Origin: an uncultured Roseobacter sp.
GTDB taxonomy: Bacteria > Pseudomonadota > Alphaproteobacteria > Rhodobacterales > Rhodobacteraceae
Direction: 5' to 3'
Assembly: GCA_947488305.1 (NCBI GenBank)
Contig: CANKZM010000002.1
Location: 558,001 to 622,000, forward strand
DNA: 64,000 nt
Of this stretch, positions 4,861 to 21,378 are shown piece by piece (positions within the stretch are counted from its first letter, which is position 1; each line of letters starts with the position of its first letter). The translations under genes were made by a program, and so were the position numbers. Under the pieces are notes generated by a model. The model worked only from the letters and a program-made list of their open reading frames with translations, made no database searches and was not told where the DNA came from.

Positions 4861-5699
4861 ACGCATTGGGTCTCGCAATAGTGATCTGGATTGCCGCCTG
4901 GGGTCTCAACATCTGGCTGGCAAACGGTCCTTGGCGGGAAAGCAAAGCCGTGCGAATTGCCGTGCCTGTACTTTTTGGTCTAACACTGCTGGTCCTTTGG
5001 GAAGGGATCGTTCGGGGGCTCAACGTAAGCCAGGTCATTTTGCCACCGCCGAGCTTGGTTGCTCAGACCTTTGCGGCATCTACCGATATTCTATGGGTCG
5101 ACTTTGTACAGACGGTTTTGAAAGGTGCGCTGCGGGGCTTTGCTATAGGTTTTGTTGCTGCGGTCATATGTGCGATCGCCATTGATCGCTCCGCCTTTCT
5201 GACGCGTGGTCTATTGCCGATTGGGAACTTCTTTGCCGCTCTGCCCATCGTCGGGGTGGCGCCGATCATGGTCAACTGGTTCGGATTTGACTGGCAGTCA
5301 AAGGCAGCTGTTGTGGTTGTCATGGTATTCTTCCCCATCCTGGTCAATACGGTCCAGGGATTGCGCGCGACGGATGCGATGCAACGCGACCTCATGCGCA
5401 CATATGCGGCAAATTATATGCAGACACTGATCAAATTACGCCTTCCGGCCGCGATGCCATTTGTGTTCAACGGCTTGAAGATTGCGACGACACTTGCATT
5501 GATTGGCGCGATAGTTGCTGAATATTTTGGCTCTCCAACGAGGGGCATGGGATTTCGGATATCGACTGGCGTTGGCAGCTTGTCCATTGATCTTGTATGG
5601 GCTGAAATTGCGGTGGCGGCGTTGGTTGGAACAGCGTTTTACGGCCTTGTAGCCGTGATCGAAAAACGGGTGACTTTCTGGCATCCATCACAACGATAA
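4857..5699 (+). CDS. ABC transporter permease, NitT/TauT type (second of two)
   Basis: Second membrane subunit of the same importer. Starting at the ATG at 4857, which overlaps the previous stop in an ATGA, it encodes 280 residues. It has about six hydrophobic segments and the coupling-loop motif around RLPAAMPFVFNGLKIA, matching the place and form of that motif in the first permease. An open frame extends upstream to 4758, but it would overlap the first permease by about 100 nt and lacks permease-like residues, so it is rejected as the start. The binding-protein gene follows after 35 nt with its own ribosome site. Confidence 0.9.
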   Translation: MNALGLAIVIWIAAWGLNIWLANGPWRESKAVRIAVPVLFGLTLLVLWEGIVRGLNVSQVILPPPSLVAQTFAASTDILWVDFVQTVLKGALRGFAIGFVAAVICAIAIDRSAFLTRGLLPIGNFFAALPIVGVAPIMVNWFGFDWQSKAAVVVVMVFFPILVNTVQGLRATDAMQRDLMRTYAANYMQTLIKLRLPAAMPFVFNGLKIATTLALIGAIVAEYFGSPTRGMGFRISTGVGSLSIDLVWAEIAVAALVGTAFYGLVAVIEKRVTFWHPSQR

Positions 5700-5734
5700 C
5701 GACAACGATGACTACAAAAAAAGGGAGAAAACTC

Positions 5735-6721
5735 ATGAAACAGCTAACAACGGCCGCGGCATTTGCATTCGGTCTGGCATCTGGAACCGCCTACGCGGCC
5801 GATGATGTCACATTGCAACTCAAATGGGTCACACAATCGCAGTTTGCGGGGTACTACGTGGCGCTGGAAAACGGGTTTTATGAAGAAGAAGACCTGAATG
5901 TCACCATCAAGCCTGGCGGACCTGACATTGCGCCTACACAAGTTCTTGCCGGTGGCGGTGCGGACGTAACCGTTGAGTGGATGCCTGCGGCCCTTGCGGC
6001 GCGCGAGAAGGGCCTGCCAATGGTCAATATTGCGCAGCCATTCAAGTCTTCTGGCATGATGTTGACGTGCCGCAAAGATGCGGGCATCGCGACAACAGGC
6101 GATTTTGCTGGAAAGACGCTGGGCGTTTGGTTCTTTGGCAATGAATTCCCGTTCCTGAGCTGGATGAGCCAGCTTGGCTTGCCCACGGACGGCTCCGATG
6201 CTGGCGTGGAAGTTCTGAAGCAGGGCTTCAACGTTGACCCCATATTGAACGGGCAGGCTGCCTGCGTGTCGACAATGACCTACAACGAATACTGGCAGGT
6301 GATTGACGCAGGCATTTCGCCCGAAGAGTTGGTGACATTCAAATACGAAGATCAAGGTGTTGCGACACTGGAAGATGGTCTTTACGTTCTGGAGGAAAAC
6401 CTCGCCGACGCCGCATTTGAAGACAAAATGGTGCGTTTTGTCCGGGCATCGATGAAGGGATGGAAGTGGGCCGAAGAAAACCCTGAAGATGCAGCGATGA
6501 TTGTGCTCGACTATGACGAAACGGGCGCGCAGACAGAGGCGCATCAGGTCAGAATGATGGGCGAAATTGCCAAGTTGACAGCTGGATCGAACGGTGCGTT
6601 GGATACCGCAGACTATGAGCGCACTGTTGAATCCCTGCTGGCCGGTGGCTCCGATCCGGTCATCACCAAAGCGCCAGAGGGCGCATGGACTCACGCCATT
6701 ACCGACAAGGCCTTACAGTAA
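5735..6721 (+). CDS. ABC transporter substrate-binding protein, NMT1/THI5-like
   Basis: Periplasmic receptor of the importer. The start at 5735 follows a strong AAGGGAG site and begins a clear signal peptide (MKQLTTAAAFAFG, ending near TAYAAD); the upstream ATG at 5708 would spoil it. The mature part has the NMT1/THI5 fold hallmarks: LKWVTQSQFAGYYVALENG at its start and the GGADVTVEW stretch. Family members bind thiamine-pyrimidine precursors, riboflavin, nitrate or other small heterocycles, which agrees with the pyrimidine enzymes encoded upstream. 328 residues. It is the last gene before a strong terminator. Confidence 0.9.
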   Translation: MKQLTTAAAFAFGLASGTAYAADDVTLQLKWVTQSQFAGYYVALENGFYEEEDLNVTIKPGGPDIAPTQVLAGGGADVTVEWMPAALAAREKGLPMVNIAQPFKSSGMMLTCRKDAGIATTGDFAGKTLGVWFFGNEFPFLSWMSQLGLPTDGSDAGVEVLKQGFNVDPILNGQAACVSTMTYNEYWQVIDAGISPEELVTFKYEDQGVATLEDGLYVLEENLADAAFEDKMVRFVRASMKGWKWAEENPEDAAMIVLDYDETGAQTEAHQVRMMGEIAKLTAGSNGALDTADYERTVESLLAGGSDPVITKAPEGAWTHAITDKALQ

Positions 6722-6728
6722 AGAAATT

Positions 6729-6754
6729 GCGGAGCGCGCAGGCGCTCCGCTTTT
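6729..6754 (+). terminator. Rho-independent terminator of the pyrimidine operon
   Basis: A perfect 9-bp GC-rich stem (gcggagcgc / gcgctccgc, 6729-6737 and 6742-6750) with a 4-nt loop is followed by TTTT. It begins 8 nt after the binding-protein stop and lies before the convergent cyclase gene, as expected for the end of the operon. Confidence 0.88.
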
Positions 6755-6807
6755 CGGTATTCCGGACCGCGTTTTGCGAGAGCTTTGGCCCCGATTGGGG
6801 TAGCTTG

Positions 6808-9800
6808 TCAGGCCTCTGACAGCAGCGCTTTTGCTTCCCTGTAGTCTGCTGTGTCCTGTCCCTCGCTCATGCTTTCGAGCATTGGCAAGAGTATATCTAC
6901 TGCTTCCTGGCGATGGCCCGCTTCCAGAAGCAACTGCGCGAGATCCCGTTTCAGCCGCAACTGCCATCCTTGCGCTTTCTGCGCCTGCGCAACTGAGAGG
7001 GCAGAGTCCAAAATAGCGCGCGTTTCGCTAAAAGGTGTGCCTTGTTTTACTCGGACGGCGGCTTCTATCCTGCGGCACTCTGGCAGATAGCACTGTTCTC
7101 CAAAGCTATCGATGCGCTCCAGAGCCTTTCGAACCATCAAATCTGCCTCGTCAATCTTTCCGGCACGCACGTGGTTTTCTGCCACCAAGGCGTAAAACTT
7201 GGGAAGGGACGAGCCTGTACCGCTGGCGACATAACGCTCCAGTGCGGATTCGAGCAGCTTACCCCCCTCAACCAGATCACCCTTTTCACTGAGCGCCCAG
7301 CCAATCCAGAAATTTCCATGATCGACCCAGACCTCTTTCCCTTTGGATCGCGCAAATTCGATGCCTGCACGGGCGCGCTCTAGCATAATGTCGGGTTCGC
7401 GGCGCAGAACGTAAACCGACGCACCCGATGTGAGTGCCTGCGCATAGCTGTAGGGGTGCGGATGGGCTGCGATATGGGCATGTAACTTGCGTTCCATTCG
7501 CGCTGCCGCGTCGGCCTGACCCAGTAACCATAACAGCCAACTGCCGTGCTGATAGCCAACAACAAGGCGGTCCACGGCGTATTTATGGGCCAACTCCGGG
7601 TCTTGCTCATTGTCGTAGCGTTTTTCCATGGTGCGCAAGTGCGCGAGCGCTTCCTCGAAGCGGCCAGCATAGTAGAGTGCAAGACACCGCGAGGTGTGCG
7701 CGACCACGATGTGCTCGTGGTTTCCGTCCTCTGCCGCGAAGTCGACAAGACGTTTAGATGCGCGCACATTCGCATCCACGTTTCCGCGGATCATATGGTA
7801 GGCGTTCAGCCCCCAAACCACCGGGAAGAGATCAGTACTGGATTTTACTTCCTCGGTGAGTTTGGCGGCTTTGTTGAGCGCCTCGAGAACACCGGCAGAT
7901 CCATGTCCTTCGACCGAGATCAAAGTACGACCCTTTGTCGAATAGAGTTTAAGTTCCAGAGCTTTACGCGTCTGGTCTTTGTCGCACTTGCCGATTTCGC
8001 TGATGCCTTTGCCGATATGCACAAGCGCTTCTGAATGGGCAGAATTGCGCAGAGCGTTCTGGCCCGCATTATACCAGGCTTCCGCAGCCTTGGCGTACTC
8101 AAGAGCGTTGCTGTGGTGATAGGCGAGACGCTCCGGCTCTCGTTGAATTAGGTCCGGTTGGGCCTTTGCATAAAGCGCAATGACGTTTTTATGCAGATCA
8201 ATCCGTTGACGTTTCAATACACATTCATAGGCAGCTTCATGTACCAGAGCATGGGTAAAGCGCCACGCAGGTCCGCTCGGGTGCACAATTGGTTCGAGAA
8301 TTTTCTCTGAAACGAGGTAGTCCAGTGCGGCGTCGAGGTTGTCCTTCGATAGGCCTGTCAACTCGGGCAGAAGATCGAATTCGAACTCGCGCCCCAGCAC
8401 GGAGAGCACAAGCGCCAACTCGCGATGTTCTTTCAGTGGATCAAAGCGCGCTGTTAAGGCACCGCGAATGGTCGCCGGTATGGCTGCAGTGCCATGCCCG
8501 CCCCGTTGTTGCTCGGACACGACAAGCCGCGTAATTTCGACGATATAAAGCGGAACGCCTTCGCTTCGACGCACGATCGCGGCGACAGCAGCGTCTTCAA
8601 GAGGTACGTCGCCGGCTGTTTCCCGCACAAGAGTGGCCGCTGCGGTGTCGTTCAGACGATCCAGCGGCAAGGGCGTGCCGATGGTCTCCCGGATTTGATC
8701 CGCATTGCCGCGTGAGGCGCTGACGATCATGACCGGACAATTCTCCAGGTCCGTGTTCAGCCGCGATATCAGTTCCTGCGTTGTCGAGTCGATCCAGTGC
8801 AGGTCTTCCACGACGATCAACACCGGTGACCGTTGCGACCGAATTCGGATGTGGGACACGCACATGGACAGCAGGGTTTTCCGCCGGTCAAGTCCGTCGA
8901 TTTCGGTCTCGGACAGGTATTCAGCGTCCCCGATCAGGTGGCCTAACACGTTCCGTTTGATGTGGGGTTGAAACGCGTCTCCGGTTCGAAACTGTGAGAG
9001 TTTCTCAGGGGCGGCAAGGGTTCCATGGTGCAGTCCAAGCTCTTCTCGGACCCAGTTGGCGACGGAATACAAAGCCGTGTTGGCAAAAATCTCATTGCCG
9101 GACCAGACGATGGTCTGTTCAGGTTCTACGTCGATTGCGTTGCGAAAGGCGTTTAGCAACCGGGTTTTCCCGGCACCCGCCTGTCCACATAGCACGAACG
9201 CGCTCTGGCGTCCTCGTTTGGTGGCTTGCCACTCCGCTTTCAAACGGTCCAGCAAATCAGTCGATCCGACAAGCGACATTCCCGTCAGCGCATGCAGGCT
9301 TTTCCCTTGAAAGACGCTTTTGACGTGCCAGGCTTGGACGGCATCGGCAAATCCGCGCGCTTCAATTGCTTCTGCTGGTTCCAGATCGAATTCAGGTGCG
9401 GCAATCGATTTGGTCACAGGACAGATGATCACCCCGTTCACTCGCGCGTGAGACTGGATACGGGACGCAAGATTTATTGCTTCACCGACAATGCCGTCTT
9501 CTTCCGCAGTGCCTTCCGAGACGATGTCGCCTACCACGCAGGTGCCCGAAGCGATGCCTATCCGCAGGCCAAGAGTTTCATTTGTACCCGGCAGGGTAAT
9601 GTCCGAAACGCGTGCAACGATATTGAGTGCCGCGCGCACAGCGCGTTGTGCATCATCGTCGTGCGAACGCGGGTAGCCAAAGACCGCAACAACCCCATCG
9701 CCAGCAAAATGGATGATCTTGCCGCCATGCTGCTTAAGCTCGCGATTGAGCAGGCTGCGGTATTTGCTGAGGAGTTCCCGATAGTCTTCGGGATCCAGAC

Positions 9801-10116
9801 TGCGAAGTAGTTCAGTTGACCCGACCATATCGGAGAACAGGGCGGTCAGTTGCCGTCGTTGTGCATCGATACTGATCCGCCCTTCAGGAACCGTTTCGGT
9901 CTGAGACAGGTTGGCGAGGGCTTCACTCAGGCGATGGCGATCACCGATAGGGAGGTTGAGCTCCTTGAGGTTTTCGTCCGTAAGTTTCGCCGCGACACCC
10001 AGGTCGATACGTTCATCCAGGAAGACCTGAATATGGTGGGCGAGACCAGCACGGGTCAAAAGGTCGACGATGCCGGGATCATACCAGCTTTGCGTGCTCT
10101 TAATTTCACGCACCAT
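6808..10116 (-). CDS. SAM domain / class III nucleotide cyclase / STAND-like ATPase / TPR protein
   Basis: A 1102-residue cytoplasmic signalling protein. In order: a SAM-like domain (about 12-70); a class III adenylate/guanylate cyclase domain (about 88-265); an AAA/predicted-ATPase module with Walker A GQAGAGKT (311-318) and a Walker B-like VVEDLHWID; and a long C-terminal helical, TPR-like region. The cyclase looks active: metal-binding D96 (FSDMVGS) and D140 (FAGDG), the substrate-side lysine K133, and the transition-state pair N215 and R219 (GEAINLASR). The ATG at 10116 follows a GGAAGA site; a longer frame to 10182 would overlap the LodB-like gene. It begins 20 nt after that gene ends, so the two are probably co-transcribed. 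The sensed signal and effector are unknown. Confidence 0.88.
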   Translation of the reverse strand: MVREIKSTQSWYDPGIVDLLTRAGLAHHIQVFLDERIDLGVAAKLTDENLKELNLPIGDRHRLSEALANLSQTETVPEGRISIDAQRRQLTALFSDMVGSTELLRSLDPEDYRELLSKYRSLLNRELKQHGGKIIHFAGDGVVAVFGYPRSHDDDAQRAVRAALNIVARVSDITLPGTNETLGLRIGIASGTCVVGDIVSEGTAEEDGIVGEAINLASRIQSHARVNGVIICPVTKSIAAPEFDLEPAEAIEARGFADAVQAWHVKSVFQGKSLHALTGMSLVGSTDLLDRLKAEWQATKRGRQSAFVLCGQAGAGKTRLLNAFRNAIDVEPEQTIVWSGNEIFANTALYSVANWVREELGLHHGTLAAPEKLSQFRTGDAFQPHIKRNVLGHLIGDAEYLSETEIDGLDRRKTLLSMCVSHIRIRSQRSPVLIVVEDLHWIDSTTQELISRLNTDLENCPVMIVSASRGNADQIRETIGTPLPLDRLNDTAAATLVRETAGDVPLEDAAVAAIVRRSEGVPLYIVEITRLVVSEQQRGGHGTAAIPATIRGALTARFDPLKEHRELALVLSVLGREFEFDLLPELTGLSKDNLDAALDYLVSEKILEPIVHPSGPAWRFTHALVHEAAYECVLKRQRIDLHKNVIALYAKAQPDLIQREPERLAYHHSNALEYAKAAEAWYNAGQNALRNSAHSEALVHIGKGISEIGKCDKDQTRKALELKLYSTKGRTLISVEGHGSAGVLEALNKAAKLTEEVKSSTDLFPVVWGLNAYHMIRGNVDANVRASKRLVDFAAEDGNHEHIVVAHTSRCLALYYAGRFEEALAHLRTMEKRYDNEQDPELAHKYAVDRLVVGYQHGSWLLWLLGQADAAARMERKLHAHIAAHPHPYSYAQALTSGASVYVLRREPDIMLERARAGIEFARSKGKEVWVDHGNFWIGWALSEKGDLVEGGKLLESALERYVASGTGSSLPKFYALVAENHVRAGKIDEADLMVRKALERIDSFGEQCYLPECRRIEAAVRVKQGTPFSETRAILDSALSVAQAQKAQGWQLRLKRDLAQLLLEAGHRQEAVDILLPMLESMSEGQDTADYREAKALLSEA

Positions 10117-10136
10117 CGCTAGTCTTCCGATCGAGT

Positions 10137-11198
10137 TCAGCCTCTGCCGCTGCGTCGCGCCCAGAAAGGGCTCCACGGCCAACGATGCTCAGCCCCGTAC
10201 ATTTCTTTTCGTTCAACTTCATGGCTATCCCATACCGCCTTTAGGTATTCATCAAAACCTGTGGGGGATGCAACAGCTGCTTTGTGACAATCTTCGATGA
10301 CGGCGGCGGCTTTTTGTCCATCGCGTAAAGCTTGTGCGATGCCGCCACCTGAAAGCGGATCGCGCCCGATCGCAGCATCCCCTATGGCCAACCAACCCGG
10401 GCCGCTGAAACGGTGCAGCCGTCGGCTTGTCGCGGCCCATGCCCGAGGTCGTCCTGTTTTGGCAAGCGTGAGAAACTGCGAGACAAGTCGCGTCTCGCGT
10501 AACAGATCATTGAAACTTTCGGTTTTTGCAGCGCGATGAGCAGCGGGCAGATCGCTGTCTGTCAGAAATGCGAAAACGCGCCGTTCGCCGCAGAGCGGGG
10601 TGGTATACCACCAACCACTTTCGACGGCTTCGATGAAAAGAGGTTGGGCTGTGTCATGACCGTTGTGATCGACAATGGCATGGAAGGCGATAAGCCGATC
10701 CTTCACATCGTTGCCGACGTCGAGTTGATTGGCGATAACGGCACGCCGGCCACTGGCATCCACGAGAAAGCTTGCGACATCTTCGGTACCATCGTCGAAG
10801 TGTAGCTGCCAACCAGCTGCGGTCCGAACCGCTTCGCGGACCGCTGTACCAACGCTGACCTGCGCGCCGACATCGCGGCACAGATCGAGCAGCGCATTTT
10901 CAAAGAGCTGTCGGTCGACGTGCCAGCCGTGTGCCAGTCGGCTGGTGTAGTCCACGCGCGCGATGTCATCAGACCCCCAGACGCGGTCGACGCCACTGCA
11001 GGGCAGGTGGTCGCGGTCGAGTGTGCTCTGAGAGAGGCCAAGTTCTTCGAGATCAGCAAGCGACGAAGGCGGGATAACTTCACCCGCCTTGGGAGCCGCG
11101 TGTTTGGCTTCCATCAACCGTACCGAGAAACCAGCTTTTGCAAGTGCAATCGCACAGGCGCACCCGGCTGGCCCACCGCCAACCACCAAGACGTGCAT
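10137..11198 (-). CDS. lodB: LodB-like FAD-dependent oxidoreductase (CTQ cofactor maturation)
   Basis: Flavoprotein monooxygenase of the tryptophan-halogenase/geranylgeranyl-reductase fold. LodB is known to be needed for cysteine tryptophylquinone (CTQ) formation in LodA, probably by hydroxylating the tryptophan. The 353-residue protein starts with the dinucleotide motif VVGGGPAGCACA and carries the second FAD motif IGDAAIGRDPLSGGG near residue 270. The ATG at 11198 places the Rossmann motif at the very N-terminus; the open frame continues to 11255 without domain content. It diverges from a LodA-like gene across 124 nt, the pairing expected for this system, which is why LodB is preferred over a generic halogenase. 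Symbol is by homology and context. Confidence 0.78.
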   Translation of the reverse strand: MHVLVVGGGPAGCACAIALAKAGFSVRLMEAKHAAPKAGEVIPPSSLADLEELGLSQSTLDRDHLPCSGVDRVWGSDDIARVDYTSRLAHGWHVDRQLFENALLDLCRDVGAQVSVGTAVREAVRTAAGWQLHFDDGTEDVASFLVDASGRRAVIANQLDVGNDVKDRLIAFHAIVDHNGHDTAQPLFIEAVESGWWYTTPLCGERRVFAFLTDSDLPAAHRAAKTESFNDLLRETRLVSQFLTLAKTGRPRAWAATSRRLHRFSGPGWLAIGDAAIGRDPLSGGGIAQALRDGQKAAAVIEDCHKAAVASPTGFDEYLKAVWDSHEVERKEMYGAEHRWPWSPFWARRSGRG

Positions 11199-11322
11199 TA
11201 GGACAATCCACTTCTTTTTGAAATTGAATCTTGCTTTGGCGCCGGATTCGAACAAGGCTATCTTTTACTGTTTGTTTTTTTATCGCCCATTGTTTCAAAC
11301 TGTCCATGCCATTGAGGAAAAA
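11199..11322. promoter_or_regulatory. Divergent promoter region between lodB-like and lodA-like genes
   Basis: 124 nt separate the two divergent starts. The right half is AT-rich with T-runs (11264-11300) and must hold promoters for both directions. The lodA-side ribosome site is a GAGG at 11314-11317, 5 nt before the ATG at 11323. No clear palindrome was found. Confidence 0.5.
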
Positions 11323-14300
11323 ATGGAATTTTCAGCCATCAAGCGGTGCGTCATCGCGCCTTCGATAGCCATTGCCCGCGTCGGCAACTCCCCCACACAG
11401 TTCTTTATCGGCCCGGAATGCCCCGGTCAGAAAGTACGACCGGAAGGCGGTTTCAAGGACCAGTCCGGACGAATCAAGCGCCAGGCGGCGCGCTTTCGCA
11501 TTTACGCGCTCGACAAGGACGACAAGGTTCTGGGCGAGATTACGTCCGATTTTGCTGACATCACGTGGCACGCGCATCTTGCAAATCGAAAGGCCGCGTT
11601 TCTCAAGTTCGAAGATCGCTTCAACATGCCTGATCATTTCGTATCGGAAGCGCCTCCAATCACACCTGAAAACAAAAAACACATTCGTAATGCCGACTAT
11701 TCGGGACCGCGCAAAGACCTGATGATTGATCCTGGCGCGCGCGAGATTACCGGTTGTGACGCAGGACCTGTGCGCTTTGACGGTGGAAAATTCATGGACC
11801 GGGAAGTTCCGCTTGGCGAGTTGCGGACGGACGCAGATGGGCGCTTGCTGGTTTTGGGCGGCTTCGGAAATTCCGCCTCGATCAAGCCCAACAACCCGAC
11901 GCTGACTTATGCCAACAACGACTGGTGGTATGACGACACATCTGACGGTCCCGTATCGGCCGAGGTGCAATTGCACAGCGGTCAAACGCTTGAGGTGCGT
12001 CCGGCGCATGTCATTGTTGCACCCCCAAACTATGCACCAGATATCGAGAATATCCGGACCCTCTACGACGTTTGCCGTGATGTTGCGCACGAGATTGGTC
12101 TCAAGAAAGAAGCGCGACCTGTCTCATTCAAAAAGGATGTTTACCCGCTGCTGGCTCGGATGGCACGGACACAGTGGGTCAATGATACGGCTCGGCGGGG
12201 GCATGGGCCGGGGGCCGGGGGCGATTTCCTTGATCCCGCGACGCTCGACATGCTGAGCCTCAATCCCAAGAGAGGCAAGGGAAGGGCAGACACGAAAGCC
12301 CAGGTCGACAAGGCCAAGGCCGCCCGCAAAGATATCTTCAACCGCCTGAGAAATCCGCGGCTCGACTACGATTCACCGGAAGCTGTTGACCAGGCGAACT
12401 ATCGGTTCATGCCGATCTTGGCCGGGGATGACGGGGACTGCAAAGAGGGTGAGCCCAAGTGCTGGATGCGATTGCTGGAATCGCAATATGCCGTCATGGA
12501 ATCCTGGGCCAAAAACGATTTTGAAGACGATTGGGACGGGACGCCTCCCGTTTGGTCGAAGTTTGAAGAGATAGATCTTCAGGACAGGCCTCATGCCTTG
12601 GTGCAGGGCGCGCTTCAACCTTGCGTCGGCGGGCCATTCTATCCCGGCATTGAGATTACCTTCATTAGCCAATTCAAGGATTTATACGCGGAACCCTTCG
12701 TCATCGATCCGAACATTGGTGCAGGACAACTGACCCAGTATATGGCGCTGCCCTGGCAGTCTGACTTCTTCCAATGCCACACCCATTGGTGGCCTGCGCA
12801 GCGACCCGATGATGTCGTCTCGGAAGCAGCCTACAAGGCGGTCATTCGCGATGTGCAGGGCGAGACTTCGCCCGATGGTACCGAGTTCAGGGCCGAACAG
12901 CTTCCCGGTCTCTTACCAGCAGGCAGCGATGCCGAACGCGTGACCTGGGCCCGTGAACGTTTTGCGCACCGCGATCCCTGGGCCAGAGGGGTAGAGACGA
13001 GTTTTGACGGCCACCTGCCCAAAAAGTGGGATTTCTCCGACACGCGGGGATCGAACGCCCTCGTCGACCTCTGGGACGAGATGGGGTTTGTTGTGGGGCG
13101 CCCGTCTCCGGTTCCGAAAGCGCTGAGCCAGCTGCGCCAGAATGGCGCGGGAGATACGGATAAGAACGCATCGGCCCGCTGGACACATGAAGACCGGATC
13201 GTTCAGGTGGAAACCGAACGAGCGCCTTTCGCCGGGATCAATTTGCGTGAATTCTACTACTATCTGTCCAACATCGACAGCTACCCTGAATTTCTTCCCA
13301 AGGCACGCTGGCTGGTCGAGTACTTCCTGAAACGATCATGGGACAGGCAATATGAACAAGGCTATCCCGAAAGCTGGCGTTTCTTTGAGTATTCCGATGA
13401 GCTTTACGACACACGGATGCAGCGGATCTATGATGAACTGGTGCATTCGGGGCTGAACTACGATCCCGCTGATCCTAACGACAACCCGACCTTCCGAACC
13501 CGCGAAGAATTCCTCGTGCGGATCATTAACTTCGCCCCTTTCAATCAGAATGATGGCGCATGGTTGCATAAAGCGACCCCGGCGGGACCCCTCGACGAAG
13601 TGCAGTCGCTGTTGTTCTCGATCTGGATGGATGAGGCAGGAGATGGGGAAGTCCATCAAAGCCATTGCAACATCTATACAGACCTTCTGAAAAGCCTGGG
13701 CATCTATCTTCCAGACCCGCGCAGCCGGGCCTACGCTTTTGACGATCGCTTCCTAGACAGTGCCTTTGCCGTGCCTGTTCTGGAGCTGGCGATTGCTCAG
13801 TTTTCGCAGGAATATATCCCCGAGCTTCTGGGCTTTACGCTGGAGCTGGAATGGACCGTGCCCGGGCTCTATCCTGTTGAAAAGATGTGCGAATACTTCG
13901 GCGTTGATCCGCATTTCTACCGGCTCCACATTGGCATCGACAATGCGGCCGATGGCCATGGTGCCAAGGCAAAAGAAGCGGTCAAACTTTATCTCGATCA
14001 GGTACGTGCAAAGGGTGGCGAACAGGCCATGCGCGAACATTGGCGCCGCATCTGGAATGGCTTTCTCGCCTTTGGCGACACAGGCACCATGGGGCAGGAT
14101 CTGGTCAACAAGATCAATCAGATGCGCACGGAAACGCCAGAGGCGGAAATCCTTCGGATAATTCAGGAGAAGGCGCAATACGGCGCGCTGAACCATCGCG
14201 ACAAATCCATCGGCCCCAACCCGATCAATGACTGGTTCCTTGATCCCAAGGGTTTTGCGGATGCGCTTGTCGAAGCGGGCTACATTGTACCGGGCCGGCC

Positions 14301-14916
14301 TGACCAGTCGCGCTTTTTTGAGCTGACAAGCTTTAACGGCCCGATGTTCAAGGTCTTCAACGATGCTGAACTGGCTGCCTGGCAACGCTGGACGCTTTGG
14401 CTGGCGAACAAGGACAAACCGGTCAACGGCGCGGCACCGATCAAGCACCCAGGCGTGGCAATGGCCGAACTGGTGGAAACTCTGCAGGTGCAGGCAGACG
14501 GTGAGCCCGCGCATAAGGCGATGCTTCTCAAGGGCAAGCATCCCGAAACCGGCGAAGCCGTGGAGAAAAGTGTGTCATGGTGGCTGACGCAGGTGCGACA
14601 AGGGGAGCATGAGGCCACCTTTGCCTTCATGCGCGCTTTGGCTGACCCGAAGAACGGCATGATCGCTCCCGGAGACATCGAAAAAAGCGTGATCCTGAAC
14701 GACTACCTTGGCGTCGACAGCCGCATGGGACAGGCCTTTCAACGTGTTGACCATGCCGGTCAGTCTTTCCGCGATGTCATGATCGGTTGGATCGGCGCTG
14801 GTTGCCCTATTCCATCGGCGGGCAAGTCGCAATCCGAACCCTATTCTCTGCAGAATATGCCGCCACATGACGTCCACCCCAGACCTCGGGTCCGTGGCAT
14901 GGGTGGCATTCACTAG
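11323..14916 (+). CDS. LodA/GoxA-like CTQ oxidase fused to a haem-oxygenase-like diiron oxidase domain
   Basis: 1197 residues, far longer than LodA or GoxA (roughly 650-820). Residues 1 to about 560 are LodA-like: VIAPSIAIARVGNSPTQFFIGPE near the N-terminus in shortened form (RVGNSPTQFFIGPE), C434 in PCVGGPFYPGIE and W490 in HWWPAQRP, the expected Cys-Trp pair for cysteine tryptophylquinone. Residues about 640-895 match the haem-oxygenase-like diiron oxidase (HDO) pattern: E771 and H781 (ten apart), E843 (seventh from LLG), then H869, D873 and H879. The last 300 residues are helical and unassigned. No signal peptide is seen, as in LodA. Start at 11323 follows a GAGG site. Function is inferred: amine or peptide oxidation by the quinone domain, plus O2-dependent chemistry by the second. 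The fusion is the notable point. Confidence 0.82.
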   Translation: MEFSAIKRCVIAPSIAIARVGNSPTQFFIGPECPGQKVRPEGGFKDQSGRIKRQAARFRIYALDKDDKVLGEITSDFADITWHAHLANRKAAFLKFEDRFNMPDHFVSEAPPITPENKKHIRNADYSGPRKDLMIDPGAREITGCDAGPVRFDGGKFMDREVPLGELRTDADGRLLVLGGFGNSASIKPNNPTLTYANNDWWYDDTSDGPVSAEVQLHSGQTLEVRPAHVIVAPPNYAPDIENIRTLYDVCRDVAHEIGLKKEARPVSFKKDVYPLLARMARTQWVNDTARRGHGPGAGGDFLDPATLDMLSLNPKRGKGRADTKAQVDKAKAARKDIFNRLRNPRLDYDSPEAVDQANYRFMPILAGDDGDCKEGEPKCWMRLLESQYAVMESWAKNDFEDDWDGTPPVWSKFEEIDLQDRPHALVQGALQPCVGGPFYPGIEITFISQFKDLYAEPFVIDPNIGAGQLTQYMALPWQSDFFQCHTHWWPAQRPDDVVSEAAYKAVIRDVQGETSPDGTEFRAEQLPGLLPAGSDAERVTWARERFAHRDPWARGVETSFDGHLPKKWDFSDTRGSNALVDLWDEMGFVVGRPSPVPKALSQLRQNGAGDTDKNASARWTHEDRIVQVETERAPFAGINLREFYYYLSNIDSYPEFLPKARWLVEYFLKRSWDRQYEQGYPESWRFFEYSDELYDTRMQRIYDELVHSGLNYDPADPNDNPTFRTREEFLVRIINFAPFNQNDGAWLHKATPAGPLDEVQSLLFSIWMDEAGDGEVHQSHCNIYTDLLKSLGIYLPDPRSRAYAFDDRFLDSAFAVPVLELAIAQFSQEYIPELLGFTLELEWTVPGLYPVEKMCEYFGVDPHFYRLHIGIDNAADGHGAKAKEAVKLYLDQVRAKGGEQAMREHWRRIWNGFLAFGDTGTMGQDLVNKINQMRTETPEAEILRIIQEKAQYGALNHRDKSIGPNPINDWFLDPKGFADALVEAGYIVPGRPDQSRFFELTSFNGPMFKVFNDAELAAWQRWTLWLANKDKPVNGAAPIKHPGVAMAELVETLQVQADGEPAHKAMLLKGKHPETGEAVEKSVSWWLTQVRQGEHEATFAFMRALADPKNGMIAPGDIEKSVILNDYLGVDSRMGQAFQRVDHAGQSFRDVMIGWIGAGCPIPSAGKSQSEPYSLQNMPPHDVHPRPRVRGMGGIH

Positions 14917-14928
14917 GGAAGAGCTCAG

Positions 14929-16551
14929 ATGGATCTGAAATACGCGGTCATTGGCGGTGGCGTCGCTGGGGCATATGTGGCCTGGCGGCTTGTGACGAGC
15001 GGGGCAGGGGCGGGTCAGACCCGGCTATTTGAATACAGTGACCGGATTGGCGGGCGTCTCTATTCAAAGAAGCTGCCCGGCCTGCCGAACGTCCCCGCGG
15101 AACTGGGAGGGATGCGGTATCTGCCCGCCGATCACCTCATGGTGAAGTCGATCGTTGACCATCTGGGGTTGCCGACACAGCCCTTCCCCATGGGAAATCC
15201 GAAACATACTGACCCGAATGATCCCAAGAGCCCGGTTATCGGCCAGTCCCGTAACCTGCTGTTTCTTCGGGGCGAACGGCTCACCAACGCTGACTTGAGG
15301 GACGCGGCGAAAGTACCTTACAAACTTGCCCCGGATGAACTGGGGCTCTCGCCGACCGACCTGCAAATCAAGGTGATGAAGCAGTTGGCCGGACCCGATG
15401 CAGAGAAGCTGAGTACGGCAGACTGGTTCAAAGTCATGGCCTTCGGTGAACCGATGTACAAGATCGGCTATTGGAACCTGCTGGCCCGGTGTCTGTCACC
15501 AGAAGCCTATCATTTCATGAAAGACGGCGGTGGGTATGATGCCAATACCGCCAACACGAACTCGGTCTACCAGCTTCCGGCAACCGAATACGGCGATGTG
15601 CCCGTCGAATATCGCGGTCTTTGCGATGGATACCAATCGTTGCCGCTCACGCTGGAAAAGCAGCTCGGTGACAATCGGGGTCTGCCAACACAAAAGCAGG
15701 CGGCGCTTTCCCATATTGAGCGGATCAAAGGCGGCTATCGGCTGACATTCAAGCGCACACGTGACATCGACGGCTACTACCAGATCCCGCCAGACCCCGA
15801 GACTTTCCATGTCACGGCAGAGCATGTGGTATTGGCCATGCCGCGGCGTTCGCTGGAACTGATCGATTGGCGGGGTTTTGAAACCAACAGTTGGTTGCGC
15901 AAAAACCTCAAAAGCGTCGCGATCCAGACCGCGTTCAAGTTGTTGTTAGGCTTTGAAAAACCATGGTGGCGAGACCTGGGTCTTTTTGCCGGGCGGTCGA
16001 CCACAGATTTGCCGTTGCGCCAGACCTACTACTTCCCTTCAGAAGAGGATTTTGCGCCCAAGGACGGCAACAAAAGTGCCCTGTTGCTGGCGACGTATAA
16101 CGATATGGCGACTGTACCGTTCTGGCGCGGATTGGAACATGCCGCGCCTTTCACCGGGCACAAGACGGCCCATACCGGAGACGCTGATCCGGTCCCGCCC
16201 TCGGAAACGCCGGTCACGCGCCAGATGGTTGAGGCGGCAGTCAAGCAACTTGGCGAGCTTCACGGCGTGGCCGATTTGCCCGCACCCTATACGGCGCTCT
16301 ACCATGACTGGAGTGCGGACCCCTACGGCGGCGGATGGCATGAATGGCAAGCCGGATATCGCTTCATCGACGTGATTCCGAAAATGCTACAGCCGATTTC
16401 GGACGAACGCATCTACGTGTGCGGAGAAGCCTATTCGACGGATCAGGGGTGGGTCGAAGGATCCCTCGCGACGGCAGAGACGATGCTACAAACACATCTG
16501 GACCTTAAGAGACCGGAGTGGATCGATAAGAAATGGACCTTGGGAGGATAA
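14929..16551 (+). CDS. FAD-dependent amine / L-amino-acid oxidase family protein
   Basis: 540 residues with the N-terminal FAD-binding motif VIGGGVAGAYVAWRL, followed by the GGRLYS arginine motif (DRIGGRL) and the ELGGMRY segment seen in monoamine and L-amino-acid oxidases. The C-terminus has GEAYSTDQGWVEGSLATAE, the usual FAD-contacting end of this family. Expected reaction: oxidative deamination of an amino acid or amine to the 2-oxo acid or aldehyde with release of ammonia and peroxide. It starts 12 nt after the LodA/HDO fusion with ribosome site AGGGAAGAG and precedes a 2-oxoacid decarboxylase, so amino acid to 2-oxo acid to aldehyde is a plausible route. Relatives also modify protein-bound residues or amino-acid dimers. 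Confidence 0.83.
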   Translation: MDLKYAVIGGGVAGAYVAWRLVTSGAGAGQTRLFEYSDRIGGRLYSKKLPGLPNVPAELGGMRYLPADHLMVKSIVDHLGLPTQPFPMGNPKHTDPNDPKSPVIGQSRNLLFLRGERLTNADLRDAAKVPYKLAPDELGLSPTDLQIKVMKQLAGPDAEKLSTADWFKVMAFGEPMYKIGYWNLLARCLSPEAYHFMKDGGGYDANTANTNSVYQLPATEYGDVPVEYRGLCDGYQSLPLTLEKQLGDNRGLPTQKQAALSHIERIKGGYRLTFKRTRDIDGYYQIPPDPETFHVTAEHVVLAMPRRSLELIDWRGFETNSWLRKNLKSVAIQTAFKLLLGFEKPWWRDLGLFAGRSTTDLPLRQTYYFPSEEDFAPKDGNKSALLLATYNDMATVPFWRGLEHAAPFTGHKTAHTGDADPVPPSETPVTRQMVEAAVKQLGELHGVADLPAPYTALYHDWSADPYGGGWHEWQAGYRFIDVIPKMLQPISDERIYVCGEAYSTDQGWVEGSLATAETMLQTHLDLKRPEWIDKKWTLGG

Positions 16552-16581: not shown

Positions 16582-18324
16582 ATGGCGACGGACCAGATTA
16601 CGGTTTCCGAGTATTTGATCAGGAGGCTGCGCGAAAACGGTGTGCGGCACATTTTTGCAGTTCCTGGGGACTACATTGGTGATTTTCTCGACGTGGTGGA
16701 CGCCACCAAGGACGTGGAGCGGATTGGCACGGTAAACGAACTTGAAGCGGGCTTCGCCGCAGATGGCTACGCACGATCCTGCGGTCTTTCCTGTGTGGCG
16801 TTGCAATACGGGGTTGGTACTTACAGCGCGCTGAATGCCATTGCCGGGTCAATGCGCGAACGGGTGCCCGTCGTTTTGGTCACAGGTGCGCCGGGTGCGG
16901 CCGTGCGTAAAAAATGGGAACCCTACGGCATCGTCTTTCACCACTCAACCTCGCCCGACATGGACGTGGACAGCAAGATTTTCTCCAATGTCACCGTTGC
17001 GACAGAGGTGATCAAATCTGCGGAGGAAGCGAGTGCCGCGATCGACCATGCCTTGTCAGCAGCGCTTTTGCAGAACGCGCCGGTCTACATTCAGATATGG
17101 AAGGATGTGCAGAAGGCGATGATCGATCCCCCGGTTGGCGAGCTCCCTTTGACGGCCTTGCCGAAATCCTGGCCGGATGCGCTTTCTGCGGCGCTCGATG
17201 CCACCGTTGAACGGCTTAAAGCTGCGGAAAATCCGGTATTCTGGGGTGGGTTGGAGTTGCAGCGTCTGAACATGAATGAAGAGCTCAGCACGCTTATCCA
17301 TGCATCGAATATTCCATTCACGACCACGATTCAGGCGAAGGGTGTGGTGACAAACTCAGACCCATTGCATATCGGCACCTTTGCGGGAGCTGCGTCTGAC
17401 GAACTGGTCATCAATGTGATGAAAAAAGCGGATTTGGTCATCGAACTCGGGGCCATTCCGATCGACTATTACCACAATTACGTCATCGAGAAATTTGACC
17501 AGACCGTCTCGGTCCAACGTGACGCCGTTCGGGTTGGTTCCGCTAAATATGCAGGCGTCTACTTCGAAGAATTTCTCGATGGTCTGATCAAACGTTTTCA
17601 GGATGACCCAAGCCTTAAACGCCCCCGGATTCAAATGCCGACAAAACTGACTGGTCAGGGCAAAAAGGATGAAAAACTCACTTTTCAGTATATCTTTGAC
17701 GAGATTAACGACCGGCTGGAAGATGAGACCGCAGTTTTCTGTGATCTTGGGATAAGCATGTTCATGGGCGCGCGGCTGGATGTGAAGCGCCGTAACGGAT
17801 TTACATGTCAGACTGACTGGATGTCGTTGGGCTACGCGGTACCGGCTGCGCTTGGTTTTGCACTGCACGATGGCCGACCACTATACGCGATTGCGGGCGA
17901 CGGGAGCTTTCAGATGACAGCTCAGACGCTATCGACCTATGCCAAATTGTCTGAGCGCTGGAAGGACGATCCGTCCTTCCACATCACGATCATCATTATT
18001 GATAACCAAATCTACGGGCTTGAACAGTGCTTCACGGGTGTCGGTGCCTTTCTTCCGAAAAAGGATGGAAAGGGATATCAGGAAAAATTCAATGACTACA
18101 ATGTATTGACCAGTTGGGATTATGCAGCTTTAGCTAATTCGCTTGGGTTGGTCGGGGTGTCTGTGGATTCTTATGGAAAGCTGAAAACCGCGCTCGATGA
18201 TGCCCATCATAGTAATGTCCCGACGGTGATACAGGCTTCCGTCGACAAGCACGATTTGCCGCCCGAGTTGCTGGCTTTGGTGGAGAGCTTCGCGCCAAAA
18301 CAACCACCGGGCGGCGGGACGTGA
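16582..18324 (+). CDS. Thiamine-diphosphate 2-oxoacid decarboxylase (pyruvate/indolepyruvate decarboxylase family)
   Basis: 580 residues with three ThDP-enzyme domains. The catalytic glutamate lies in NELEAGFAADGYAR, the adjacent-histidine pair typical of PDC/IPDC/phenylpyruvate decarboxylases is present (FHHSTSP), and the ThDP-Mg motif runs from GDGSFQ to DNQIYGLEQ. These features indicate non-oxidative decarboxylation of a 2-oxo acid to an aldehyde rather than acetolactate synthesis. It follows the flavin oxidase by 30 nt with a AAAAGGGAG site; the ATG at 16582 is taken as start (another ATG at 16575 is out of frame). Substrate could be an aromatic or branched 2-oxo acid. Its stop abuts the stop of the opposite-strand gene. 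Confidence 0.87.
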   Translation: MATDQITVSEYLIRRLRENGVRHIFAVPGDYIGDFLDVVDATKDVERIGTVNELEAGFAADGYARSCGLSCVALQYGVGTYSALNAIAGSMRERVPVVLVTGAPGAAVRKKWEPYGIVFHHSTSPDMDVDSKIFSNVTVATEVIKSAEEASAAIDHALSAALLQNAPVYIQIWKDVQKAMIDPPVGELPLTALPKSWPDALSAALDATVERLKAAENPVFWGGLELQRLNMNEELSTLIHASNIPFTTTIQAKGVVTNSDPLHIGTFAGAASDELVINVMKKADLVIELGAIPIDYYHNYVIEKFDQTVSVQRDAVRVGSAKYAGVYFEEFLDGLIKRFQDDPSLKRPRIQMPTKLTGQGKKDEKLTFQYIFDEINDRLEDETAVFCDLGISMFMGARLDVKRRNGFTCQTDWMSLGYAVPAALGFALHDGRPLYAIAGDGSFQMTAQTLSTYAKLSERWKDDPSFHITIIIIDNQIYGLEQCFTGVGAFLPKKDGKGYQEKFNDYNVLTSWDYAALANSLGLVGVSVDSYGKLKTALDDAHHSNVPTVIQASVDKHDLPPELLALVESFAPKQPPGGGT

Positions 18325-18777
18325 TTACTCGGGGAGTTCGTACCACCCATCGAAGTCGGAAAACCCGATGATCCCTTCTTCGTTCCTCTTGGGATCGGGC
18401 ATTACCTGATAGACCATGTTCCAGTTGAATTCGCCCTGAACGCCTTTGAACTTGCCTGTGCTGTCGCCGGTGAACCATGATTTGCCGCCCAGCTGTCCCG
18501 GTTCCTTGGCCGGATTTGCTTCCCAGCGCAGGTAGCAATAATCGCCGCTGCCATCTGTGATGATGCAGTACCCTTTGGCTTCAACAGTCTTTCCGTCGAC
18601 CATTTCGTTCATGCCGGGGCAACGCCAGGCGGTACCATCAAGAAATGAACCCTTGCCCGCAAGATTGACGAACGGGCCGGTGAACTCACCCAGCCAGAGC
18701 ATATGGTTGGGGCCGTCAATTTCGTATGTGGTCCCGCTTGTCAGAAAACAATGATGACCTTTGATTGGATTTCGCAT
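18325..18777 (-). CDS. Conserved-looking small protein of unknown function
   Basis: 150 residues, no family recognised. It is rich in Gly, Trp, Cys and aromatic residues with alternating beta-like stretches (GPNHMLWLGEFTGPFVNLAG, GDYCYLRWEAN), suggesting a small beta-barrel or lipocalin-like fold; no signal peptide is evident. The ATG at 18777 sits behind an excellent AAGGGGGAA site, and the frame upstream (a TTG at 18795) is less likely. It converges with the decarboxylase with no bases between the two stops. It may belong to the LodA/HDO locus, but that is only positional. Confidence 0.72.
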   Translation of the reverse strand: MRNPIKGHHCFLTSGTTYEIDGPNHMLWLGEFTGPFVNLAGKGSFLDGTAWRCPGMNEMVDGKTVEAKGYCIITDGSGDYCYLRWEANPAKEPGQLGGKSWFTGDSTGKFKGVQGEFNWNMVYQVMPDPKRNEEGIIGFSDFDGWYELPE

Positions 18778-19194
18778 TTGGATTTCCCCCTTCAATGATT
18801 TTTTATAGCTCCCAATTCAGAGAGACGGATTTTGCCTTTCCAAGTCAAACAGTTTTTAGGGGAATTTTCTTTAGATGCACGACTGTAAGGCGAGTTTTGC
18901 ACGCCGCGACGTCCTTTCCTGCAGCGCCTGAAAGCCCATCGCGGTGGGGCTGCGCGCATCTTCGTCAGGCGTAACGACCGTGACAGGGAAAGGCTGACCT
19001 TCTGTTCCAGTTTGATAATGGAAATTTCTGAGAAATAGTCGGTGCGCGAGGTCTCCCAACACTTTCAGTTCAGCCGACATATGCTAGACAGTCCAAACCG
19101 CTAATACCCAAGAGGGAGCTGCATTCCATGTGCTTACGCGCAGGCATGTCCACCCCGGCTTGCAACGCTGAATTCAGCCGGGAGGGGAGATAGA
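18778..19194. other. Intergenic region between divergent genes; promoters expected, no gene called
   Basis: 417 nt. It must contain promoters for the small gene on the minus strand and the E1 gene on the plus strand. A minus-strand frame at 18871-19080 (69 residues) lacks a ribosome site and domain features. The right end holds a strong GGGAGGGGAG site for the E1 gene. No clear operator or terminator was found. Confidence 0.5.
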
Positions 19195-21378
19195 ATGGAT
19201 CGTGCCGATGTTGTACACGAGGCCTTCGTAAAACGCGTCTCTTCCGGAGAGTTTCCCGCTGGCGCATCTGCCGCTGGTCCCTTGACCGGACCAGAGGCTG
19301 TCGCAATCTTTCGGGCGCAATGCCTAAGCCGCAATCTGGATCGGCGGTCGCGCAAAATGCAGGCGGCGGGGCAGGGGTTCTACACGATTGGATCCTCGGG
19401 GCACGAGGGCATGGCGGCGGTGGCATCAGCGTTAAACACGGATGACATGGCTTTTCTGCATTACCGGGATGGGGCCTTTCAAACCCGCCGGTCTGCCATG
19501 GTACCCGGCACGACAGCAACTTGGGACATGCTGAGCAGCTTTTCGACCGCAAAGTCCGATCCGATATCAGGCGGGCGGCACAAAGTTCTCGGGTCCAAGG
19601 CGCTCAATATACCGCCTCAAACTTCCACCATTGCAAGCCATCTGCCCAAAGCTGTCGGTGCGGCCTATTCCATCGGGCTGGCACGGCGCCATCCGCCAGA
19701 GCACAAGGAGCTTGCCGACAACAGCATCGTCATGTGTTCTTTTGGTGATGCCTCGGCAAACCACTCGACCGCGCAGGGGGCGATCAATTCGGCCTGTTGG
19801 ACATCGTTCCAATCGGTGCCTTTGCCGTTGCTTTTTGTCTGCGAAGATAACGGTATCGGTATTTCGACACGCACTCCTTCGGGTTGGATCGCCGCAAACT
19901 TCAGCGCAAAACCGGGCCTGAAATACTTCCGTGCCAACGGGCTGGATATCTTTGATACCTATCGCGCTGCTGCGGAGGCGGCAGCCTATGTTCGCAGCCA
20001 GCGCAAGCCCGCGTTCCTGCATCTCACGCTCGTGCGCTTGTATGGCCATGCGGGGGCTGATTTGCAGCAGTCCTATCTGGATAAAACCCTTTTTGAAGAA
20101 TGGGAGCATAACGATCCGCTGTTGCACTCCGCACGGCTGCTGCAGGAGCGTGGCATTTTGTCGGCCGACGAAATCCTGGGCATCTATCTGGAGACGGAGG
20201 CGCAATGCACCCGGGTTGCCGAAGAAGTCGTGAAGTTACCGCGGCTTGAGACGGCAGAGGATGTCATGGCATCGCTTGTTCCGCCGAAACGCACGTGCAG
20301 GTCGACCAACGGGCCAGCGGAGGACGCCCGTGCAGCTGCTTTCCAAAGTGACCTGAAGCAGATGGACAAGCCGCAACCGATGTCGCGGCTGATAAATTGG
20401 GCGCTGACAGATCTGATGCTGGAGCATTCCGAAATCGTCATGATGGGAGAAGACGTCGGCCGCAAGGGCGGGGTCTATGGCGTCACGCAAAAGCTTTGCG
20501 ATCGGTTTGGCCATGACCGGATTGTCGATACCCTACTGGACGAACAGTCCATTCTGGGGTTGGCGATTGGCCTTGCTCATAACGGCTTCATCCCGATACC
20601 CGAGATTCAGTTCCTTGCGTATCTCCACAATGCGGAAGATCAGCTTCGCGGTGAGGCGGCCACTTTACCCTTCTTTTCCAACGGGCAGTTCAGCAACCCC
20701 ATGGTATTGCGTATCGCGGGATTAGGGTATCAGAAGGGCTTTGGCGGCCATTTTCACAATGATAATTCGCTTGCGGTTTTGCGGGACATTCCTGGTCTCA
20801 TCATCGCCTGCCCCTCTCATGGGGATGACGCCGCACGGATGCTGAGAGAATGCGTGCGCCTGGCGCGCGAAGAGCAGCGCGTTGTCGTGTTTCTGGAGCC
20901 TATTGCGCTTTATCCAATGCGTGATTTGCACGAGGATGGCGATGCAGGTTGGATGCGGTGCTATCCATCTCCCGACAAATGTATTCCGTTGGGCGAGGTT
21001 GGCGTTACGGGTGACGGGCCGCTGGCGATCCTGAGCTATGGCAACGGGCACTACCTGTCCCAGCAAGCGGCAAAAGACCTTCAGGCGAAAGGGATCGAGA
21101 CACGTATCATCGACATGCGTTGGATCGCTCCGATGCCCAGAGATGCCATTCTCGGTGCGATTGACGGGGCGCAAAAGGTTTTGATTGTCGACGAATGCCG
21201 AGGGACCGGTGGTCAATCCGAGGCGTTGCTGTCCATGCTCGTGGAAAACAGTTCCCTGCCGGCAGCCCGCCTGGCCGCAGAAGACAGTTTTATCGCGACA
21301 GGGCCAGCCTATGCCGCGACCATGCCAAGCCGCGATAGTATTATGGCGGCGGCAATCAGACTTTGGAACGCGCAATGA
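19195..21378 (+). CDS. 2-oxoacid dehydrogenase E1, alpha and beta subunits fused
   Basis: 727 residues. The first half is E1-alpha: QGQGFYTIGSSGHEG-type start of the active site and the ThDP-Mg motif from GDASANHSTAQGAIN. The second half (from about 395) is E1-beta, with MMGEDVG, DTLLDEQSILGLAIGLA and FGGHFHNDNS. This arrangement is typical of branched-chain 2-oxoacid dehydrogenase-like fused E1 proteins. It would oxidatively decarboxylate a 2-oxo acid and pass the acyl group to a lipoyl domain, but no E2 or E3 is encoded nearby. The start at 19195 has a very strong ribosome site. The next gene overlaps its stop, so the acyltransferase may use the product. Confidence 0.87.
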   Translation: MDRADVVHEAFVKRVSSGEFPAGASAAGPLTGPEAVAIFRAQCLSRNLDRRSRKMQAAGQGFYTIGSSGHEGMAAVASALNTDDMAFLHYRDGAFQTRRSAMVPGTTATWDMLSSFSTAKSDPISGGRHKVLGSKALNIPPQTSTIASHLPKAVGAAYSIGLARRHPPEHKELADNSIVMCSFGDASANHSTAQGAINSACWTSFQSVPLPLLFVCEDNGIGISTRTPSGWIAANFSAKPGLKYFRANGLDIFDTYRAAAEAAAYVRSQRKPAFLHLTLVRLYGHAGADLQQSYLDKTLFEEWEHNDPLLHSARLLQERGILSADEILGIYLETEAQCTRVAEEVVKLPRLETAEDVMASLVPPKRTCRSTNGPAEDARAAAFQSDLKQMDKPQPMSRLINWALTDLMLEHSEIVMMGEDVGRKGGVYGVTQKLCDRFGHDRIVDTLLDEQSILGLAIGLAHNGFIPIPEIQFLAYLHNAEDQLRGEAATLPFFSNGQFSNPMVLRIAGLGYQKGFGGHFHNDNSLAVLRDIPGLIIACPSHGDDAARMLRECVRLAREEQRVVVFLEPIALYPMRDLHEDGDAGWMRCYPSPDKCIPLGEVGVTGDGPLAILSYGNGHYLSQQAAKDLQAKGIETRIIDMRWIAPMPRDAILGAIDGAQKVLIVDECRGTGGQSEALLSMLVENSSLPAARLAAEDSFIATGPAYAATMPSRDSIMAAAIRLWNAQ

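Follow-up and report, generated by a model that had tools for sequence, protein, structure and literature searches.

A LodA-type quinoprotein fused to a haem-oxygenase-like diiron oxidase domain in an uncultured Roseobacter: a candidate two-centre amine or amino-acid oxidase

What might an enzyme do that carries an amine-oxidizing quinone and a diiron centre on one and the same polypeptide? The question is raised by an open reading frame (positions 11323-14916, plus strand) in a stretch of 64,000 nucleotides, hereafter termed the window, from an uncultured Roseobacter sp. (assembly GCA_947488305.1, contig CANKZM010000002.1, positions 558,001 to 622,000). A first-pass annotation had described this frame as encoding a LodA-like quinoprotein fused to a haem-oxygenase-like diiron oxidase (HDO) domain. 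In agreement with that description, the 1197-residue frame is free of internal stop codons, carries the bases GAGG immediately 5' of its ATG and occurs only once in the window's own assembly. Three Pfam families match above their cut-offs, namely LodA_N at residues 13-232 (4.8e-72, 242.8 bits vs. a cut-off of 26.3), LodA_C at residues 374-497 (1.6e-26, 93.3 bits vs. 25) and Haem_oxygenas_2 at residues 735-910 (4.5e-19, 69.4 bits vs. 28.9). Thus, a half of the cysteine tryptophylquinone (CTQ) type and a complete HDO half are very probably joined in one chain. A frameshift or a pair of separate genes, the pitfall flagged by the annotation, can be ruled out: the frame is uninterrupted in the window and in a related locus from Marivita (L002), and a single coding sequence is annotated in a second one from Paraburkholderia (L025). 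The cofactors, the substrates and any coupling of the two halves are what we infer for this protein, and our tentative proposal, held with less than even confidence, is that it may be a bifunctional amine or amino-acid oxidase combining quinone and diiron steps.

With regard to the quinone half, the annotation had named C434 and W490 as the cofactor-forming pair. In a 48-row alignment of LodA-type frames of at least 590 amino acids, some rows of which are overlapping copies of one gene (e.g., L014/L023), the assignment of W490 was upheld, since this residue, D481 and C485 are invariant in all 47 rows that have a residue there. Position 434, on the other hand, is occupied by Cys in 35 rows and by another residue in 12 and is a gap in one; C434 was rejected on account of this variability in favour of C485. 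In phmmer searches, residues 11 to 598 align piecewise with solved LodA/GoxA chains (2ymw, 3weu, 6byw and others). By way of these alignments, the CTQ residues of LodA, C516 and W581 (PMC4417212), map onto C485 and W490, and the Asp residue near the cofactor of PlGoxA, D678 (PMC7876137), maps onto D481; for chain 2ymw, 20 positions were subtracted, an offset inferred from the 3weu alignment ranges. Cys and Trp are five positions apart in the fusion vs. 65 in LodA (PMC4417212) and, going by the phmmer alignment, 15 in PlGoxA; a similarly short loop is present in some LodA frames that lack an HDO match (L014, L015, L017). The gamma subunit family of QHNDH (PF08992) scores 15.5 bits, under its cut-off of 25, and the protein is not counted among its members.

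HDO proteins are defined by a set of three His and three carboxylate ligands (PMC13108848), and by alignment such a set is present in the fusion. The six ligands picked out by the annotation, E771, H781, E843, H869, D873 and H879, were all recovered, and the set is intact in 49 of 51 HDO domains, being incomplete in L090 and in L054 (N-terminal unit). These domains were obtained from 74 hits whose span on the profile exceeded 110 by filtering for length (150 amino acids) and duplicates; the count refers to profile-recognized domains, and the ligand-poor N-terminal units of proteins with two HDO units (two-HDO proteins) mostly lie outside it and were counted separately. A further residue, E834, is Glu in 51 of 51 domains and might act as an additional metal ligand. 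In a profile search of solved chains, matches were obtained with RohS (E 0.00022), HrmI (0.045) and, weakly, SznF (2.4). HrmI catalyses a reaction on lysine. Both RohS, which is termed an N-oxygenase (PMC13232832), and HrmI also possess the E-x9-H motif, and neither has a Glu aligned at E834.

The annotation had placed the HDO part at residues 640 to 895, followed by an unassigned tail of some 300 residues. The start at about 641 holds; homology extends to about 925, and the HDO module also takes in part of the tail. The first part of the tail matches DtpC to about residue 1024 and the two-HDO protein of L119 to residue 1031, which rules out a wholly new domain, and only residues 1036-1197 retain a special position in that they align over their whole length solely in the fusions. 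Four single-HDO matches extend into the tail to residues 1063-1076, and winged-helix matches there (MarR/MecI chains) are weak (E 0.035 to 1.3).

DtpC of Acinetobacter baumannii was identified at L118 5689-7098 (469 amino acids): when numbering begins at codon 10 of the frame as listed, positions 143, 153 and 232 hold E, H and H, in accordance with E143, H153 and H232 probed by mutation (PMC13232832). They correspond to E771, H781 and H869 of the fusion, and DtpC aligns with residues 729-1024, i.e., with the ligand-bearing part and the proximal tail (BLASTP, 29% over 302 columns, E 1e-28). A DtpC-like protein at L090 4123-5601 retains only three of the six ligands (E, H and H are replaced by N, Q and S), and HDO-type proteins resembling DtpC are encoded on two records labelled Acinetobacter phage MD-2021a (H61 and H62, 328 and 378 kb) that may be bacterial contigs. 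Phylogenetic trees for HDO and LodA were calculated with FastTree and midpoint-rooted, support values not being printed. In the HDO tree, the fusion does not group with the DtpC-like single-HDO proteins but falls with the two-HDO proteins, where it clusters with their C-terminal domain. In all nine two-HDO proteins the N-terminal unit is devoid of metal ligands and is followed by a similar tail stretch, and the second units included in the tree retain the ligands. Some of the genes reside among biosynthetic-looking genes, as in S. meliloti (L121, near a nonribosomal peptide synthetase gene), S. lavendulae (L122) and A. vitis (L124). In A. vitis, genes annotated as LysE, carbamoyltransferase and SGNH are located downstream, and the frames after L119 appear alike.

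The annotation had suggested looking for the same fusion in other genomes, and two full-length relatives came to light, one in Marivita sp. S6314 (L002, 81% identity) and the other on plasmid 2 of Paraburkholderia caribensis (L025, 46.5% identity over 97%). No further full-length fusion was found in 19 genus, 394 family, 399 (family of G942), 380 order, 385 class and 398 phylum genomes, six overlapping samples of which five contain the window's own genome and in which at most two candidates were scored in many genomes, such that weak matches may have escaped detection. Of the 19 genomes of its own genus, one contains the fusion gene, and in the plasmid collection one of 64 matching records covers at least 80% of the query at one place. 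A scan of viral contigs with the HDO alignment yielded 43 pattern stretches and no relatives, and PADLOC assigned no family to the protein. As the three fusions form a single clade in the HDO tree as well as in the LodA tree, the most parsimonious history suggested by the sequences is a single fusion with subsequent transfer. Identity between the window and L002 amounts to 80% in the LodA half, 68% in the linker, 93% in the HDO half and 81%, then 69% along the tail; the corresponding values for L025 are 49%, 50% (20 linker residues), 60% and 45%, then 33.5%. The ratio of nonsynonymous to synonymous substitution rates (dN/dS; Nei-Gojobori, custom script) for the window and L002 is 0.028 within the HDO segment compared with 0.060 over the entire gene; a value for the LodA half is not given because dS is saturated there. 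The HDO half is thus the most conserved segment and that under the strongest constraint, as expected for an active centre, and this constraint together with retention of the full length in two other genomes indicates that the fusion is more than a chance event.

The combination of domains as such is not new. The annotation had stated that LodA/GoxA proteins act alone and had pointed to no described example of the fusion known to it; neither point is supported, as Table 3 of a survey published in 2015 lists five LodA proteins with pfam14518 (985-1413 amino acids) as well as 21 that carry pfam00199 (PMC4417212). The pairing of LodA with pfam14518 has therefore been known since 2015, and it is the C-terminal placement of the HDO domain that differs from the order stated there. 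Where the survey treats the pfam14518-containing proteins, it assigns no function to them and defers their relevance to experiment (PMC4417212). Among the matches listed in the open-access literature, no later mention of a LodA/HDO pairing beyond that survey was found.

The fusion gene is embedded in a set of genes (Table 1) that is arranged identically in L002, from the cyclase-ATPase gene through the lodB-like gene, the fusion, the flavin oxidase-like and the decarboxylase-like genes to that for the 156-residue protein. The LodB-like flavoprotein remains below every NCBIfam equivalog cut-off (GoxB, LodB, QhpG) and has its best phmmer match in chain 7ctq, a peptidyl tryptophan dihydroxylase (1.4e-17); its gene more likely starts at the ATG at 11198. 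A LodB-type gene is also found near the fusions in L002 and L025 and in 18 of 19 LodA loci. The flavin oxidase-like protein resembles 8jt7, an 'Amine oxidoreductase' (4.1e-152), and L-Lys oxidase 7eii (3.2e-85), and the decarboxylase-like protein matches indolepyruvate, phenylpyruvate and pyruvate decarboxylases, again below the equivalog cut-offs. In P. caribensis, the fusion is accompanied by a lodB-like gene, a methyltransferase gene, two genes of the octopine dehydrogenase type, those for a PhyH dioxygenase and a tyrosinase, and a second HDO that is only weakly matched (20.5 bits vs. a cut-off of 28.9). A scan for promoters and terminators returned 2 and 8, respectively, compared with 4.0 and 9.1 in shuffled sequences. 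Two further proteins of the window may be mentioned. The one encoded at 6808-10182 resembles TIGR03903 (TOMM kinase/cyclase fusion) in the C-terminal part of that model, with a score of 343.7 bits that falls short of the cut-off, and PADLOC models for Pycsar cyclases match its cyclase part only. At 19195-21378 (plus strand), a 727-residue protein with E1_dh, Transket_pyr and Transketolase_C carries both the alpha and the beta part of a 2-oxo-acid dehydrogenase E1 on a single polypeptide.

Table 1. Positions in the window of the fusion gene, its segments and putative cofactor residues, and the genes surrounding it
Feature	Position	Strand	Basis and remarks
SAM + nucleotide cyclase + AAA protein	6808..10182	-	overlaps end of lodB-like gene; L002 counterpart at 5492-8866
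LodB/GoxB/QhpG-type flavoprotein	10137..11255	-	divergent from fusion; NCBIfam GoxB 221.6, LodB 195.8, QhpG 167.8 bits
LodA-HDO fusion gene	11323..14916	+	one open frame, 1197 amino acids; full-length relatives L002, L025
LodA/GoxA-type CTQ oxidase half, residues 1-600	11323..13122	+	Pfam LodA_N, LodA_C; phmmer to GoxA/LodA structures
D481, C485, W490, putative CTQ residues and adjacent Asp	12763..12792	+	47/47 aligned rows
HDO half, residues 641-925	13243..14097	+	Pfam Haem_oxygenas_2; phmmer to two-HDO proteins from 641
Predicted ligands E771, H781, E843, H869, D873, H879	13633..13959 (codon span)	+	alignment; E834 within same stretch
Tail segment, residues 926-1035	14098..14427	+	common to DtpC and two-HDO proteins (BLASTP, motif rows)
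Distal tail, residues 1036-1197	14428..14913	+	whole-length alignment only with other two fusions
Flavin L-amino-acid-oxidase-like protein	14929..16551	+	12 bp downstream of fusion; Pfam Amino_oxidase
Thiamine-diphosphate 2-oxo-acid decarboxylase-like protein	16582..18324	+	Pfam TPP_enzyme N/M/C
156-residue protein	18325..18795	-	no Pfam/NCBIfam family at 0.1; 85% identical beside L002 fusion

How could two such centres work together? In the pathway that we tentatively propose, the divergently encoded LodB-type flavoprotein would make the quinone of the fusion, the quinone half would oxidize a primary amine or amino acid with formation of ammonia and H2O2, and the diiron half would then act as an oxygenase on that molecule or on a related one within a common pathway, to which the L-amino-acid-oxidase-like and 2-oxo-acid-decarboxylase-like proteins encoded downstream might likewise contribute; the fusion would hold both steps together. 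This proposal is put forward because of the domains and their ligands and the constraint on the HDO half, which exceeds the LodA half in conservation even in L025, because the HDO domain clusters with two-HDO proteins, some of them encoded amid biosynthetic-looking genes, because metabolic genes are neighbours in the window, in L002 and in P. caribensis, and because the E-x9-H motif is shared with RohS and HrmI. Several points weigh against it. The haem-oxygenase-like fold was not confirmed, since an AlphaFold model of residues 574-1197, built from the window and L002 sequences only, reached a mean predicted local distance difference test value of 36.4 and a predicted template modelling score of 0.27 and was unusable. 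The alpha- and betaproteobacterial fusions have only the lodB-type gene of their contexts in common. The flavin oxidase and decarboxylase pair also occurs in Pseudoalteromonas sp. NC201 (L153 8185-13577), in whose record a LodA match lies about 160 kb from the pair and no HDO match is listed. In addition, a LodA or LodB match was found in none of the 27 HDO loci and an HDO match in none of the 19 LodA loci that were retrieved with flanks, a subset of all matches; because free-standing genes of the two kinds are not neighbours, nothing outside the fusion ties HDO to LodA.

An alternative would be two independent enzymes with separate substrates, tethered for equal dosage only and uncoupled. The linker (residues 601-640) resembles a flexible tether in its poor conservation, 68% identity with L002 and, with L025, 20 aligned residues of which half are identical. 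Nevertheless, both halves place the three fusions in a single clade, and domain order and tail are preserved across alpha- and betaproteobacterial hosts; mere tethering appears unlikely, though by no means far-fetched. Another function that has to be considered is peroxide handling, with the HDO half shielding the cell or the enzyme from quinone-made H2O2 in place of a catalase domain. DtpC, its homologue across HDO domain and proximal tail, limits H2O2 in dried cells and is co-transcribed with katE, either one being sufficient (PMC13232832), and in L118 a catalase gene follows 54 bp downstream of DtpC; the 21 pfam00199-carrying LodA proteins tabulated in 2015 (PMC4417212) point in the same direction, and a PF00199 catalase was not found in the window's genome at E 0.001. 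That genome does, however, contain a 755-codon open frame that resembles KatG in having two PF00141 stretches, and DtpC gave no protection against acute H2O2 (PMC13232832). Furthermore, the HDO half stands outside the DtpC-like clade (in a tree without printed support), a KatE-type match was obtained in only three of 27 HDO loci, two being from Acinetobacter, and catalase-type LodA domains were not confirmed: in seven long LodA proteins (887-1049 amino acids) the extra N-terminal part matches no Pfam family at 0.01, and none of the LodA loci has a KatE match. On balance, we judge a role in peroxide handling to be unlikely. Quite improbable is a direct connection in which the quinone half would be a built-in redox partner, each turnover of amine at CTQ supplying the diiron centre with two electrons or with H2O2. 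Finally, in-cis maturation, with the diiron half assisting in the hydroxylation of W490 as the quinone forms, would have a parallel in CADD, a self-modifying HDO protein (PMC13108848), and the initial hydroxylation of Trp in LodA/GoxA is regarded as autocatalytic (PMC7876137). HDO-less LodA proteins retain the same C, W and D, however, and a LodB-type gene is present in the window and in L025, making this explanation very improbable indeed.

HDO enzymes are known for varied chemistry, and with an HDO domain joined to an amine-oxidizing quinone it can be tested directly whether the diiron centre is fed by the quinone or whether both catalyse two steps of one pathway. If the quinone half were a redox partner, amine oxidation would drive a substrate-oxygenating diiron centre without a separate reductase. 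Dedicated redox partners are rarely known for HDO enzymes, MboAB being perhaps the first characterized pair according to a paper from 2026 (PMC13185094). The fusion also offers a fresh angle on DtpC, the activity of which is given as unknown in the paper describing it (PMC13232832).

Compared with known systems, the fusion shares LodA_N and LodA_C, the cofactor residues D, C and W and a LodB-type partner gene with LodA/GoxA proteins and differs from them by about 600 additional C-terminal residues, and its scores stay far below the NCBIfam equivalog cut-offs for GoxA (382.3 vs. 750 bits) and LodA (197.7 vs. 600 bits). RohS (9pfw) and HrmI (9n1a) resemble its other half in profile matches across the ligand helices, but the similarity is weak and they are chains of 306 and 362 residues, respectively, without a LodA part. 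DtpC has an HDO domain with the same ligands plus the proximal tail, yet it lacks the LodA half and belongs to a distinct clade of the HDO tree. The closest HDO domains, by scores down to 1e-37 and by the tree, are those of the two-HDO proteins (about 700-770 amino acids; L075, L080, L083, L084, L085, L119, L121, L122, L124), in which a second, ligand-less HDO unit takes the place occupied by LodA in the fusion. The pfam14518-containing LodA proteins of the 2015 survey, finally, combine the same two domain types per chain; by their description, with which alone the comparison was made, pfam14518 is N-terminal in these proteins, whereas LodA precedes HDO in the fusion (PMC4417212).

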